Below, piece by piece: positions 4,722 through 9,875 of a DNA stretch of 64,000 bases. Both the position numbers and the translations under genes were made by a program. The DNA lies in IMG/VR virus record IMGVR_UViG_3300021389_000008, positions 1 through 64,000 of that record; one strand, 5' to 3'. Position 1 is the stretch's first letter. Each line of letters opens with the position of its first letter. The notes beneath the pieces are model-generated. The model did no database searches, was not told where the DNA came from, and saw only the letters and a program-made list of their open reading frames with translations. Origin of the DNA: a virus.

Positions 4722-5785
4722 AAATAAGAGTGTTCATCCAATGCTTCATTATACAACGTTGTCATCAATTCGTTAAGTGGCTTTTTCTTACCTTGGATTT
4801 CTAATCCATCGATGTAATTGGATAGGATAGTTAGAGTGTCTTCGATGTCTTCTACCTCATCATCTCCATAAAAATCCATATGTTTATTATCGTCCACAAC
4901 CGATACATGTAAAGGTGAAGCAGCATGTACCTTGTCCAAGAATGTATCAAACCAATACGGATTGTCTTTATTAACGACAATAATTTTCACAAACTTACCA
5001 GTGTAATTTGAATAATCTTTTTCACTTATAGTTTCAAAAGTTTCTTTAGCGTCATCATAGAAACCCTTTTCAAACATAGTAATAGGATTGTGTATTGGAG
5101 TTAGGGATTGGTCTTCAGTATCAAAAATATGGAAGTACTTCTTATCGTTATAATCCGACCAAGTAAATTCCATCTGTGAACCAACGTAGTGAATGTTCTT
5201 GACCTCTGACTTTTGATGGAAGTGCCCGCTATACACTTTATCAAAACGTTTTAAATATGAATGGTCTAGTCCATGTTGACATGTCATGCCTGGCATCATC
5301 AATGCACCTTCTATTTCAAAGTGACCCATAGCAACAGATGCTGGTGCTGAACGTAAAAATTCTACTGAGTCAGCATAGTTATCACTATTAATCCATGGCA
5401 CAAGTGCAATAGAAAACCCATCATACTCTTTAACTTCACACTCAGAATAAACAGATACGTTTGGTTGATTGTAAAGAAGTAATTCGGGAGCATTGACATC
5501 ATTGGTGTTCTTATAATATGTGTCATGATTACCAATTACTAAGTCCATGGTTATACCACGTTCAGTCATAGGTTCAATGAAGTGTTTGATATTTGCTTTC
5601 ATGGAAGCGAAGTTGATATACTTCCTTCTATCAAAGTAGTCACCCATGTGAATGATGTGTTTGATATCATGCTCATCTAAGTATGGGAAGAACACTTCAT
5701 TATAGAAACGTCCTTGATAATTAGACATCTCAATCATATCACCTCTCACTCCACAGTGAGTGTCATTCAATATCGCTATTTTCAT
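4718..5785 (-). CDS. 47: Recombination nuclease subunit gp47 (Mre11/SbcD-like)
   Basis: A 355-residue calcineurin-like phosphoesterase with the full motif set: D8-T-H10 in the first strand, GDYFDRR (48-54), GNHD (85-88) and GHFH (187-190). These bind two Mn ions in the Mre11 family. It is the nuclease partner of gp46. The start overlaps the gp55 stop by ATGA and the stop overlaps gp46, so 55-47-46 form one tightly coupled block, as in other T4-like phages. Confidence 0.97.
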   Translation of the reverse strand: MKIAILNDTHCGVRGDMIEMSNYQGRFYNEVFFPYLDEHDIKHIIHMGDYFDRRKYINFASMKANIKHFIEPMTERGITMDLVIGNHDTYYKNTNDVNAPELLLYNQPNVSVYSECEVKEYDGFSIALVPWINSDNYADSVEFLRSAPASVAMGHFEIEGALMMPGMTCQHGLDHSYLKRFDKVYSGHFHQKSEVKNIHYVGSQMEFTWSDYNDKKYFHIFDTEDQSLTPIHNPITMFEKGFYDDAKETFETISEKDYSNYTGKFVKIIVVNKDNPYWFDTFLDKVHAASPLHVSVVDDNKHMDFYGDDEVEDIEDTLTILSNYIDGLEIQGKKKPLNELMTTLYNEALDEHSYL

Positions 5786-6345
5786 TTATCTTCGAATTTC
5801 TCTAGTGAGTTTTGTTTTGTAGATTTCCTTGTTCTTTTTGATTTTCTTGGTTCATATGCAACCCTGTTCATATTCTCTTGCATCCATTCCACGTTAGTGT
5901 TGGTTAAGGTAGGGTCGTGTATTCCATCGATTGTATCAAATGCATCGAGTGTGAGTGAAGTAGCATCAATTGCTTGTTGTTTAATGTACACTTGTTTCTT
6001 TTCTTTCTGTATTCTTCTCAAGAAAGCATAGTAACAAATCTGTGTAACATATGCAAATGCATTGTTTGATTTTTCTACATTGAAGTTGCCAAGATACTGA
6101 ATACAATTCTCGATTGCATCACATATCATTTCATCTCGATAAGTGTAATTGATAAAGTTGGGTCTAGTAGATAGTCTTGTTGCAATCTTATAGATGCATT
6201 CTCCTATGTACTCTGACATTTGGGGTGGAGTTCCTTCCGACTCTTTCGCTTCTTTGATTGCAATTGCATACTCAGAAACTGCCGCTGTGAAGTCCTTGTT
6301 GTTGACGTAATGCGCCTGTGTTTTAGGGTCTTTTTTCTTAGTCAT
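5782..6345 (-). CDS. 55: Late-transcription sigma factor gp55
   Basis: A 187-residue protein matching T4 gp55 in size, gene order and sequence style. The core YRDEMICDAIENC through FLRRIQKEKKQ (about 75-125) corresponds to sigma region 2, which contacts the beta' coiled coil and the -10 element. gp55 directs host RNA polymerase to late promoters with TATAAATA at -10 and no -35. Many such elements are found in this window. TATAATG sits eight bases before the ATG, with a GGAG just upstream. The C-terminus is rich in Arg, Lys and Ser; in T4 the C-terminal end of gp55 contacts the sliding clamp. Confidence 0.93.
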   Translation of the reverse strand: MTKKKDPKTQAHYVNNKDFTAAVSEYAIAIKEAKESEGTPPQMSEYIGECIYKIATRLSTRPNFINYTYRDEMICDAIENCIQYLGNFNVEKSNNAFAYVTQICYYAFLRRIQKEKKQVYIKQQAIDATSLTLDAFDTIDGIHDPTLTNTNVEWMQENMNRVAYEPRKSKRTRKSTKQNSLEKFEDK

Positions 6346-6378
6346 GTATACATTATACTCCTTAGTTATAGGATTCCT

Positions 6379-6436
6379 AGTGGCTTTTTGAAATTATTTG
6401 GTAATAAAAAAAGATAAGTTTTTTTAAAAAGCCACT
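6379..6436. repeat. Inverted repeat downstream of the tiny-membrane-protein cluster
   Basis: AGTGGCTTTTT (6379-6389) is the exact reverse complement of AAAAAGCCACT (6426-6436), with 36 AT-rich bases between that include A and T runs. It lies in the 141-base gap between gp55 and the tiny membrane genes. A long stem next to T runs could end transcription from either side, or form a structured leader for gp55. Nothing else is recognised in the gap. Confidence 0.55.
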
Positions 6437-6486
6437 TGTGGATTAGAAAATCTATGTTAAAGTAGCTTATGTCCCCACAGGGAAGC

Positions 6487-6636
6487 TTATATAAAGAGAT
6501 TAACGATTAGAAATAGTACGAGTAGCGGAATCATTCCTAATAACATCGTTACTATGAAGTGAAATAATATCTCCATATAAGACGGTTCATAAGACATTGT
6601 AAATTTACGTTTTACTATATTATATAGTGTGTTCAT
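6487..6636 (-). CDS. Tiny membrane protein (49 aa)
   Basis: The last of five consecutive tiny genes. The sequence MNTLYNIVKRKFTMSYEPSY is followed by about 27 strongly hydrophobic residues ending in LFI, so one membrane helix at the C-terminus with a basic N-terminus is expected. Its ATG overlaps the TGA of the preceding gene (ATGA), arguing for translational coupling and a real gene. Function unknown; a lysis-related or superinfection-exclusion role is possible but unproven. Confidence 0.7.
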   Translation of the reverse strand: MNTLYNIVKRKFTMSYEPSYMEILFHFIVTMLLGMIPLLVLFLIVNLFI

Positions 6637-6833
6637 TGGACTAATTTATTGATGACGGCGAACGAGAGAATCATAAAACCGAATACACAAACCTGTACTA
6701 TACTTGCCCAAAAGATTTGTTTCATGGGATGTACATCTGTTAGTTTTTCTATAACTGATTCGTTGGGCGAGAGGTTGACTATCTGAAGTACTTTCTTTTC
6801 AGTCTCGGGTTTGGTAAACCAAGGTACGTACAT
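6633..6833 (-). CDS. Small membrane protein (66 aa)
   Basis: A 66-residue protein with a soluble N-terminal half (MYVPWFTKPETEKK) and one clear C-terminal membrane helix (WASIVQVCVFGFMILSFAVI). A good ribosome binding site, GGAGG, lies six bases before the ATG, inside the 3' end of the preceding tiny gene. Fourth of five coupled tiny genes. Function unknown. Confidence 0.82.
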   Translation of the reverse strand: MYVPWFTKPETEKKVLQIVNLSPNESVIEKLTDVHPMKQIFWASIVQVCVFGFMILSFAVINKLVQ

Positions 6834-6834
6834 A

Positions 6835-6927
6835 TTATACCTCCACTAAAGATAGAATGGTTATCATGAAGATAGATACTAGTGTGCCTATCTCCATGAG
6901 GTCTTTGAGGTTGGATGACTTCTTCAT
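6835..6927 (-). CDS. Tiny membrane protein (30 aa)
   Basis: Only 30 residues: MKKSSNLKDLMEIGTLVSIF followed by MITILSLVEV, a charged N-terminus and a single hydrophobic helix. The ATG overlaps the previous stop (ATGA), and its stop lies one base before the next ATG. At this size it would normally be ignored, but the unbroken chain of overlaps on both sides supports translation. The last codons also carry the ribosome binding site of the next gene. Function unknown. Confidence 0.6.
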   Translation of the reverse strand: MKKSSNLKDLMEIGTLVSIFMITILSLVEV

Positions 6928-7046
6928 GAGTTTGGACTCATATTATTAAACTCTGTGGCATTTCTTAAAGACCGCAAAGAGCCTGGGTCTCGGTCATATA
7001 GAATTGCCCATGAACCTAAAATGGTAAGAAGTATAAGTATCCGCAT
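6924..7046 (-). CDS. Tiny protein with N-terminal membrane or signal segment (40 aa)
   Basis: Forty residues. MRILILLTILGSWAILY is a hydrophobic N-terminal segment resembling an uncleaved signal anchor, followed by a polar tail rich in Arg, Asp and Asn. The start overlaps the previous stop (TAATG) and the end overlaps the next start (ATGA). In orientation it differs from its neighbours, whose hydrophobic segment is at the C-terminus. Function unknown. Confidence 0.65.
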   Translation of the reverse strand: MRILILLTILGSWAILYDRDPGSLRSLRNATEFNNMSPNS

Positions 7047-7210
7047 TAGAAATTTAATAATGTAAAATACATTATCATAAATGGTACTATAAAGGGAAGA
7101 GTCATGAATGCTAGAAATTCAATAACATCACAGAGAACACACACTTGCTTACTCTCTCTAATCTCTTTAGTTTTTCGCACCATGCTCTTAGCTATCGCAG
7201 CTGTTGTCAT
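7046..7210 (-). CDS. Tiny membrane protein (54 aa), first of a five-gene cluster
   Basis: Begins MTTAAIAKSMVRKTKEIRES with a basic soluble start, then a C-terminal hydrophobic stretch rich in Phe, Met and Leu (EFLAFMTLPFIVPFMIMYF) that would span the membrane. AGGAAAATACC before the ATG offers a ribosome binding site. It ends in a TAATG overlap with the next tiny gene. Two CxxC-spaced cysteines (CVLC) sit just before the membrane segment. Function unknown. Confidence 0.68.
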   Translation of the reverse strand: MTTAAIAKSMVRKTKEIRESKQVCVLCDVIEFLAFMTLPFIVPFMIMYFTLLNF

Positions 7211-7298: not shown

Positions 7299-7760
7299 TC
7301 AATGAATTATCTTGGGGGTTCCACTAACATCAAGTATATCATCGTCCCATTCTTCGTCAAGTTCAGCATCACCCATGTAGTCTTCGAGTAGTTCATGCAT
7401 TCTCTGAAGTGATGGGGACTTAATAACTTGTCCTGTAGAAATGGGAATAGATTGTGCTTCTAACATCGTTGCCCAAGACGATGAAGCTTTATCATAAATG
7501 GGAATGAATTGTTCACTAACTTCTGCCCTGTACATGATATCTTCTTTATCGATAACTATGTTAGTGCTTTTACTAGTTGGTGCAAAGGGATAGAAGGTAG
7601 TGTTACTTGTTCCGTCTCCTGCTGGAGTGAGTGTATAACACATAGGTAGTGTTAACTCCAATTTATCAGCACGGTCTCTAGTCATTGCAACTAGTTCAGT
7701 ACCAATTTTAAGTTTAACTACTTCATATTGTTGTGGTGTGTGCAAGTCTTTTGCCTTCAT
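7299..7760 (-). CDS. Unknown phage protein (153 aa)
   Basis: I do not recognise the family. The N-terminal 75 residues (YEVVKLKIGTELVAM onward) alternate hydrophobic and polar residues and look like a small beta-barrel. The C-terminus is very acidic (DAELDEEWDDDILD). The ATG overlaps the uvsW stop (ATGA). A TATAAATA element inside the end of uvsW could provide late expression separate from the recombination genes. Confidence 0.8.
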   Translation of the reverse strand: MKAKDLHTPQQYEVVKLKIGTELVAMTRDRADKLELTLPMCYTLTPAGDGTSNTTFYPFAPTSKSTNIVIDKEDIMYRAEVSEQFIPIYDKASSSWATMLEAQSIPISTGQVIKSPSLQRMHELLEDYMGDAELDEEWDDDILDVSGTPKIIH

Positions 7761-9214
7761 GTAATGTTGAATTGTCTCATTTGATATACAAATCCCTCTT
7801 CGTTGTATATATTTATACGTTCCTTAAGGTGATTCAGAGTATGATTTTCACATTGTAAATCATCTGATATATCAAACAATCGCATTTCAGTTTTACCATC
7901 AGCCTTTCTAAGACCTCTACCAATAGATTGTAAGTTTCTTATTCGTGATTTGGAAGGAGATGCAAAGACTACATTATCAATCTTCTTAATATTAACACCA
8001 GTTGAGAAGGTACCGTATGACGCCAGTATGACGTTGTCATTTGCTTTCTCAACGATTTCCCTTACGTTCTCCCTATCCTTGGTATCGGTTCCGCCATAGA
8101 CATAGTGTAATTGTTCACCCAATCGACATGTCATCTTATTATGTAGAAGAACTCCATGTTTTTCGACATATTGAAATAGTACAAGTGTGTTCCCCTTAAG
8201 GGAATATACTAGGTTGCATATAAATTCGTTCCTACTATCATTTCCTACGAGATAATCCATCTCATCTTGGTATGACATTTTCTTCTGTTTGGTATGACGA
8301 AGTATGACACATTCTATATTTAAATTTGCAATCGTCCCTTCGTCCATTAACTCTTTTGTGGTTATGACCTTTTTGACTGGCCCAAACAAACCTTCTAGTT
8401 GTAGTCTATGAACTTCACTGCCATCAAGTGTACCAGTAGTTCCGATACGAATTGCAGTAGTTTTCATCTTCTCTAAAATACCTTTGAGTGTTTGTGCTTT
8501 AAATAAATGTGCTTCATCCCCTACCACAACATCAAATGATTGTAATACTTCTTTAGGTGCTTTTGCAAAGGACTGCCATGTTGTGACTGTTATAGAGGAA
8601 TCAAATACTTCTTGTCCACTGTATATTTTACAAATAGGTTCTTTGTATCCATACTCTTGAAAATCTTTGGTCATCTGTTCAACCAACGAAGTAGTAGGAA
8701 CTATTATTACAGTCTTACAATTGGGTAGAGACATCTCTCCTTCAAACCATCTGCATAACATATAAATGATTAATGACTTACCACTAGCAGTAGGAGATAA
8801 TAATAACTGTCTACCATACTGTACTGTAGATTTGAATGCATCTATTTGATAATCTCTTGGTGCAAAAGGAAGTCCCAAGCCTGGAATTAAGTCGTCTCCA
8901 TTGATAAAGAAGTCCACATCTTCATCTGATATTCTAGTCTTATCACCTATAACATCTTGGACACCTTCAAACTCAAATCCTCGTTCTCTACAGAACTCAT
9001 CGATGTATGGAAGTAATCCTATATAAATTTTGTTTGTTTTAATTGAGAAGAGTCGTACCTTACCGTCCCACATACGATTCTTATATGATGGCATAAATTT
9101 TGCATTGGGTACAGTAAATGAGAAAAATTCAAACAAGTCTCTAGAAAGTCCTTTATCACAATGGACTCTTAGAAATACTTCATCACATTTCTCTACTCTT
9201 ACAATGTTAGACAT
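7757..9214 (-). CDS. uvsW: Recombination helicase UvsW
   Basis: A 485-residue superfamily 2 helicase. An N-terminal domain of about 110 residues contains YKNRMWDGKVRLF, typical of UvsW. Motif I is SPTASGKS (140-147), motif II DEAH (233-236), motif III TGTLDG, and motif VI QSIGRGLRK. In T4 it unwinds R-loops and branched DNA, shutting off origin-dependent initiation in favour of recombination-dependent replication. The start at 9214 is the first ATG in frame; the frame further upstream has only a TTG. It overlaps the preceding oxygenase gene by eight bases. Confidence 0.96.
   Translation of the reverse strand: MSNIVRVEKCDEVFLRVHCDKGLSRDLFEFFSFTVPNAKFMPSYKNRMWDGKVRLFSIKTNKIYIGLLPYIDEFCRERGFEFEGVQDVIGDKTRISDEDVDFFINGDDLIPGLGLPFAPRDYQIDAFKSTVQYGRQLLLSPTASGKSLIIYMLCRWFEGEMSLPNCKTVIIVPTTSLVEQMTKDFQEYGYKEPICKIYSGQEVFDSSITVTTWQSFAKAPKEVLQSFDVVVGDEAHLFKAQTLKGILEKMKTTAIRIGTTGTLDGSEVHRLQLEGLFGPVKKVITTKELMDEGTIANLNIECVILRHTKQKKMSYQDEMDYLVGNDSRNEFICNLVYSLKGNTLVLFQYVEKHGVLLHNKMTCRLGEQLHYVYGGTDTKDRENVREIVEKANDNVILASYGTFSTGVNIKKIDNVVFASPSKSRIRNLQSIGRGLRKADGKTEMRLFDISDDLQCENHTLNHLKERINIYNEEGFVYQMRQFNIT
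7810..7817 (-). promoter_or_regulatory. Late promoter TATAAATA inside uvsW
   Basis: A perfect TATAAATA near the 3' end of uvsW. Transcription would start about 44 bases before the unknown gene that begins at 7760. Location inside a coding region lowers confidence. Confidence 0.45.
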
Positions 9215-9875
9215 ATGGGTCGCCAGCAAACCATCCCACTAGAGATTCACGTGTTCCATGTGTCACTGGTGTTACTTGGTGATATATAAATGATGGGAAT
9301 ATGATACATGTCCCCTTTGTCTTACCACTGAATGGTACTGTTCGAACAGAATTATTCATATCCAACTTCATCCCAAAACCTTTCCCCATACCGTTTAGTT
9401 GTTGAGTAGGTTCTAACCATTGGAAATTACCACCTTCATATTCTTCGGGGTCTGACAATTGAACTGTTAAACTTAATTTACGTATCTTACCATTTGGTAA
9501 AGGTTCTGGCCCGCTATCAGTGTGCCAAGTGTAAAAGTCTCCCTTCTTTTTTTTGGTTTTAGCGGGAGCATTGTATATGGTGTATTGAAGATTCTCAACA
9601 AATTCAATTTTATGATTCCATTCAGAACTTACATTCGCTTCTTCTATAAGTTTATATAATTTATCATACACATCGGGAATCGAGTTCTGCATATTTTGGT
9701 TCATAAACCATTTAACTTTACCCGAGCGTACTTGAGCATCATCTGCACCGCCTGTGGATGGGTCTCCAACCATTGCTACGACTTCTTCTTGTCCTTTTGC
9801 AACTCGTTTTATCTGTTCGACTTCATCGTCTGTGAATGCATTTTCAATAATGCACATGTTGTTTCGTAATATCAT
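9207..9875 (-). CDS. 2OG-Fe(II) oxygenase (prolyl-4-hydroxylase-like)
   Basis: A 222-residue protein with the dioxygenase metal site: H118 and D120 in YTWHTDSG, distal H199 in FIYHQVTPV, and R209 for 2-oxoglutarate ten residues later. The spacing and the PKHD-type context (LSLTVQLSDPEEYEGGNFQ) fit the phage and bacterial relatives of prolyl 4-hydroxylase. The substrate is unknown. It sits between uvsY and uvsW, one base after the uvsY stop, an insertion into a pair that is adjacent in many relatives. Confidence 0.88.
   Translation of the reverse strand: MILRNNMCIIENAFTDDEVEQIKRVAKGQEEVVAMVGDPSTGGADDAQVRSGKVKWFMNQNMQNSIPDVYDKLYKLIEEANVSSEWNHKIEFVENLQYTIYNAPAKTKKKKGDFYTWHTDSGPEPLPNGKIRKLSLTVQLSDPEEYEGGNFQWLEPTQQLNGMGKGFGMKLDMNNSVRTVPFSGKTKGTCIIFPSFIYHQVTPVTHGTRESLVGWFAGDPYV

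Follow-up and report, generated by a model that had tools for sequence, protein, structure and literature searches.

Small membrane-protein genes of a T4-like phage, probably infecting SAR86, and their association with genes of electron carriers

Cyanophages carry genes of photosynthetic electron transport, among them psbA, hli, petE, and PTOX. Single-TM proteins of 30-70 aa, such as CydX, CcoQ, and subunit IV of the aa3 oxidase, are encoded together with respiratory genes. A general statement on the electron-transport genes of cyanophages is made in the abstract of PMC5082946. A 2017 paper (PMC5332604) describes environmental genomes of T4-like type that encode IscU and A-type carriers, one IscU being close to SAR86, and cbb3 oxidase genes in viral fractions, together with SAR86 host predictions, were published in 2012 (PMC3474794). 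As far as the available portions of PMC3474794 (2012) and PMC5332604 (2017) go, neither reports an isolated SAR86 phage. In the open-licence literature on alternative oxidase (AOX), pseudoazurin, or cytochrome c with SAR86 phages, no description of the cassette presented here was found.

The window analysed is a stretch of 64,000 nt (positions 1 to 64,000 of IMG/VR record IMGVR_UViG_3300021389_000008) and represents a portion of a 95,966-base virus record with T4-like genes. Five small ORFs, designated A to E, are coded there on the minus strand in the following arrangement:

5782-6345, minus strand, gp55, late sigma factor, flanking gene (PHROG 234, E 1.6e-56)
6487-6636, minus strand, ORF E, 49 aa
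6633-6833, minus strand, ORF D (D66), 66 aa
6835-6927, minus strand, ORF C, 30 aa
6924-7046, minus strand, ORF B, 40 aa
7046-7210, minus strand, ORF A, 54 aa
7211-7298, minus strand, leader preceding A; contains inverted GTATAA...TTATAC, CTAAATA, and AGGAAA ribosome site
7299-7760, minus strand, X153, T4-GC139-like 153-aa protein, flanking gene
7757-9229, minus strand, uvsW helicase, flanking gene

Upstream of the cluster are uvsW and X153, a type labelled 'methylamine utilization' in cyanophages, and downstream gp55 is followed by a gp47/gp46-type pair; these flanks place the cluster inside a genuine virus genome. The uvsW-GC139-gp55 region of the isolated kyanoviruses P-HM2, Mosig, and Melnitz-3 (Kyanoviridae) has the same flanking genes in the same order, but the cassette is absent there, and the gap contains no more than a single ORF of about 31-36 aa. 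The genomes of PMC5332604 are T4-like, have IscU/IscA, and are linked to SAR86, as here (an IscA-like gene is at G000 88659-88985 of the window's record), and judged from the available part of that paper they likely belong to the same broad group. Membrane miniproteins, the focus here, are unmentioned in that part, and the words 'cytochrome' and 'oxidase' are absent from the text.

The lengths and junctions given for the five genes in the sequence-only reading of the window proved exact to the base: A and B join at TAATG, B and C at ATGA, C and D are separated by a one-base gap, and D and E overlap by ATGA. Its description of one hydrophobic segment per protein, four of them C-terminal, was likewise correct, with C-terminal segments in A, C, D, and E and an N-terminal one in B, the latter weak (mean Kyte-Doolittle 1.27). 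The statement that four of the five genes fall below gene-calling size was slightly overstated, since only the 30-codon gene approaches the minimum length that gene callers commonly apply. No above-threshold match to a PHROG or Pfam family was obtained for any of the five small genes; their small size is why the miniproteins escape family libraries.

ORF A has a basic N-terminal helix followed by a Pro-containing C-terminal TM, and its family is recognized by the motif M..A..(I/F)AKSMVRK....D.IEF...TLPF..PF. ORF B, the start of which overlaps the A stop by 1 nt, has the N-terminal hydrophobic segment and then a RDPGSLRSLRN tail; its relatives are found in L144, L183, and L274 at varying positions. 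ORF C has a short N-terminal arm and a C-terminal TM, and family C, with LRDTLEITTLVAIFMVSVISITG in relatives, occurs in most cassettes. ORF E consists of a basic N-terminal arm and a C-terminal TM. It is limited to the close clade of the window (L002-L010), and family G is in its place in other phages. B and G are similar in layout, with a profile score of 1%.

These five tiny overlapping ORFs are real, conserved genes, as judged from sequence comparison. In L010, a diverged relative that keeps all five ORFs with protein identity of 62-72%, dN/dS was 0.38 for A, 0.26 for B, 0.10 for C, 0.31 for D, and 0.12 for E, with 0.06 for gp55. The excess of changes at third codon positions was significant for B (p = 0.02), C (0.009), D (0.025), and E (0.004); ORF A alone did not reach significance (p = 0.23), and the A profile matches 125 ORFs in related loci. 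When the in-frame start nearest to coupling was chosen each time, related loci gave 261 junctions where small genes adjoin, of which 183 were overlaps of 4 nt or 1 nt and 226 were spaced from -4 to +5 nt; these counts come from the best-scoring relatives listed, related sequences included, and so are not independent events. Conservation of frames and overlaps in relatives, which had been proposed as a check, is thus seen as purifying selection and recurring coupled junctions, and both support the claim of translated, coupled small membrane-protein genes.

The AT-rich leader of about 85 nt is recognisable in most relatives of the window's type and is present in a single copy within the 96-kb record; it is a possible promoter or regulatory element of the cassette. 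Control by a late promoter through TATAAAT, located 61 nt upstream of A, was considered and rejected, because this motif lies between X153 and A in only 4 of 47 distinct relatives and shuffled sequences give 4.5. In the gap between E and gp55 (window 6346-6486), an inverted repeat AGTGGCTTTTT / AAAAAGCCACT was observed, possibly a terminator or regulatory element. The length of this gap is steady (about 130-160 nt) in most relatives.

ORF D is preceded by the ribosome site GGAGG within C and starts after the 1-nt gap. Its product has two short helices, a conserved HPM(K/R)Q, and then a TM helix at 36-65 with a conserved Q..VFG.M; the AlphaFold model likewise shows a pair of short helices and one long TM helix, with pLDDT above 90 in the TM. 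The family has 17 invariant residues across 16 diverse members and was confirmed in stretches of at least 540 IMG/VR contigs, and no credible match of D66 was found among 50,697 annotated phage records. A second family, D2, is an uncharacterised membrane protein of 60-70 aa from SAR86 (for example, L342 1162-1344) and has no PHROG or Pfam family above threshold. Profiles of D and D2 matched with 94.5% probability, while the other 27 family pairs were below 20% (the next best 19.7%); homology among the remaining miniproteins was rejected, as the all-pairs comparison leaves D-D2 only. Since the TM motif is common to both, the most suitable view is of one D/D2 superfamily that includes D, the homology being established for the membrane segment. 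In size, single TM, and respiratory gene company, the miniproteins resemble the oxidase small subunits CydX, CcoQ, and aa3 subunit IV, but D, D2, and the others have no Pfam match above cut-off and D has no structural match in PDB according to Foldseek.

In uncultured T4-like phages, the uvsW-gp55 slot holds a variable cassette. Its usual order at distinct loci is X153-A-C-D-G-gp55, often X153-A-C-cytochrome c-D-G-gp55, with family A as the conserved core present in most related cassettes; the A-B-C-D-E order of the window is that of a small clade. In some cassettes D2 replaces D, sometimes together with IscU/IscA. A second site of D has the order nrdA-nrdB-D-glutaredoxin, with cytochrome c beside D or in its place, and 32 of the 34 nrdB-D junctions there are overlapping (ATGA or -1). 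Among ten long phage records, seven have one full copy of D, in either slot, one has a marginal D match (1.5e-4), and two are without any. Copies from the two slots interleave in the D tree, where the window clade groups with nrdB-site copies and many forks are unresolved. Many phages carry D without an electron-carrier gene alongside, and in the window's 96-kb record neither cytochrome c, which is absent from its cassette, nor alternative oxidase was found. Among the 50,697 annotated phage records, none matched the region closely at the DNA level, and neither D2 nor such a cytochrome c was found.

A family of membrane-anchored class I cytochromes c was recognized in uncultured T4-like phages (for example, L041 3999-4442 and L068 5165-5605). 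The ORF codes for 147 aa with an N-terminal anchor, a conserved CxxxC, and then CAACHG; it matches Pfam Cytochrom_C with E 1.7e-8 and solved c552/c554/c4 structures with E 1e-15 to 1e-12. An AlphaFold model of the cytochrome made from 9 sequences was poor (mean pLDDT 59) and was not used. A scan from the cytochrome side found 502 IMG/VR viral stretches, and among 50 distinct cytochrome loci, 24 are in the gp55 slot, where 19 touch D, and 21 are in the nrdB slot, where 8 do. In L274, D2 follows cytochrome c where D is missing.

Other genes were observed at these sites. Phage AOX genes (L297 4191-4772, L310 4396-4968, L311 4098-4667, and L313 4395-4973; Pfam AOX E 3.8e-70) are 71-74% identical to SAR86 AOX and lie about 1 kb downstream of nrdB-cytochrome c-glutaredoxin, near nrdA. 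The only AOX among annotated phage records is that of Phage C48C1 (OQ984149), labelled hypothetical and with no host named. A segment of L272 (3457-6119) has ferritin-like, cysteine-desulfurase-like, and IscU genes and ends in D2; this phage contig also carries cytochrome c. A small exported EF-hand protein (L080 29-277, L097 3469-3768) is coded directly ahead of D in L080 and L081 and ahead of D2 in L091-L093 and L097.

When 84,980 cellular genomes were scanned for D, six contigs were found. Four of these (L163, L164, L167, and L168) resemble phage contigs that ended up within MAGs, so they were left out of the host count. The other two are SAR86 chromosomal stretches with D directly behind a cupredoxin gene (PF00127), corresponding to 2 of 203 SAR86-order genomes, and in the D tree the SAR86 copies fall within the phage diversity at an unresolved fork. 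Sibling SAR86 genomes have alternative oxidase or nothing behind the cupredoxin, and one sibling has D2 ahead of it. D2 itself is present in 38 of the 203 genomes. Taking as testable the 33 D2 genomes where a cupredoxin match appeared among the matches listed, D2 adjoins a co-oriented cupredoxin of the plastocyanin/azurin family in 31, upstream in 16 and downstream in 15; the pair in two orders points to a functional link rather than frozen synteny. No chromosomal homologue of A was found in SAR86-order genomes; weak matches were rejected, as they correspond to interior parts of a larger membrane protein, presumably MarC-like by inspection. A small SAR86 cytochrome is similar to the phage one in layout (anchor, paired Cys, CxACHG) and matches the phage profile with E 1e-21, the best of 399 phylum-drawn genomes reaching 4.5e-19, a likeness which is suggestive, not decisive. 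Judged from gene similarity, SAR86 is probably the host of this T4-like phage.

The genes of D and D2 thus lie, in several arrangements, next to genes of exported proteins, chiefly phage cytochrome c and SAR86 cupredoxin. This pairing hints at a role in the membrane in which D/D2 would hold or mature the carrier or dock it at a respiratory complex. Of the readings considered, these comparisons best support, with moderate confidence, one in which D66 is linked to the respiratory electron carriers of the host. D/D2 would act as a tether, assembly factor, or docking subunit of the exported carriers and would sit between carrier and respiratory complex. The phage would bring in its own D, in some cases accompanied by a cytochrome c, an alternative oxidase, or Fe-S assembly proteins likewise of its own, and electron flow would thereby be kept going during infection. 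Taken as a whole, a respiration/redox cassette of coupled single-pass miniproteins in which D/D2 partners exported electron carriers and phage D sustains host electron flow is somewhat favoured. A, C, and G/E/B may be other membrane parts of the cassette, perhaps on the same membrane complex as D. The adjacency of D/D2 and carriers could also stem from shared expression rather than contact. Conserved K/R ahead of the TM suggests a cytoplasmic location for the N-terminal soluble part of D. Such a location agrees with a periplasmic partner only in an indirect way, as contact would then be made via the far end of the TM or a shared complex.

Lysis timing and superinfection exclusion, both named in the sequence-only reading, would have the miniproteins serve the phage's own envelope ends, as holin/antiholin or exclusion proteins. 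A coupled operon that encodes several miniproteins with a single TM in a lytic-type phage, with basic N-terminal arms and a C-terminal TM in A, C, and E, would suit such a role, but no family match to holins, spanins, or exclusion proteins of the Imm or Sp type was obtained above threshold in the PHROG and Pfam searches. The cell-wall hydrolase (Hydrolase_2, G000 76264-76785) is about 69 kb from the cluster; the T4 holin is likewise unlinked, so this distance is a weak argument. Chromosomal homologues of D/D2 beside SAR86 cupredoxin are unexpected for a lysis protein, and both proposals, which found no backing here, are considered quite unlikely. Host takeover, the third proposal of that reading, stands in a specific form, as D66 and D2 travel with cytochrome c in phages and with cupredoxin in SAR86.

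The same cupredoxin pairs bear on two further explanations. According to one, the cassette would act during infection to tune a protease, an insertase, or a transport complex of the host membrane (FtsH, YidC, Sec); miniproteins of other phages target host proteases. The association with carriers would then be incidental, because both occupy variable slots where accessory genes gather; IscU, IscA, and EF-hand genes are indeed also accepted in the nrdB-grx and X153-gp55 slots, with alternative oxidase downstream. This is unlikely, since D2 and cupredoxin adjoin in either order in the host chromosome, away from any phage slot, and this adjacency needs a separate explanation. According to the other, D/D2 is an iron/redox membrane factor for ribonucleotide reductase supply (nrdB-D-grx, IscU, IscA, ferritin) and not for respiration. 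It agrees with the overlapping nrdB-D junctions and with D2 in the phage with ferritin-like, cysteine-desulfurase-like, and IscU genes, but SAR86 D2 adjoins cupredoxin, not nrd or isc genes, in 31 of the 33 testable genomes, and the explanation is very unlikely.

The gene pairing of D/D2 with exported electron carriers suggests that what the phage does is adjust host respiration, and not lyse or guard the cell. A broader proposal, put forward tentatively, is that T4-like phages of SAR86, an abundant uncultured heterotroph, have a respiratory equivalent to the photosynthesis cassette of cyanophages, with cytochrome c, AOX, and D/D2, in which A, C, and G/E/B would re-wire the respiratory membrane; phage D/D2 would, as part of the same tentative proposal, be copied from, or common with, a host periplasmic-carrier family. 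As in the cyanophage set, there are phage-borne carriers, an AOX-family oxidase, and small single-TM proteins thought to sustain host electron flow, but the carrier here is a cytochrome c, the host partner is a cupredoxin of a heterotroph, and the miniproteins A-E and D2 lack family matches. An anonymous string of tiny ORFs thereby becomes a testable lead to a small membrane-protein family of SAR86 and its presumed phages that accompanies electron carriers. Much less work has gone into the control of respiration by phages of marine heterotrophs than into phage control of photosynthesis.
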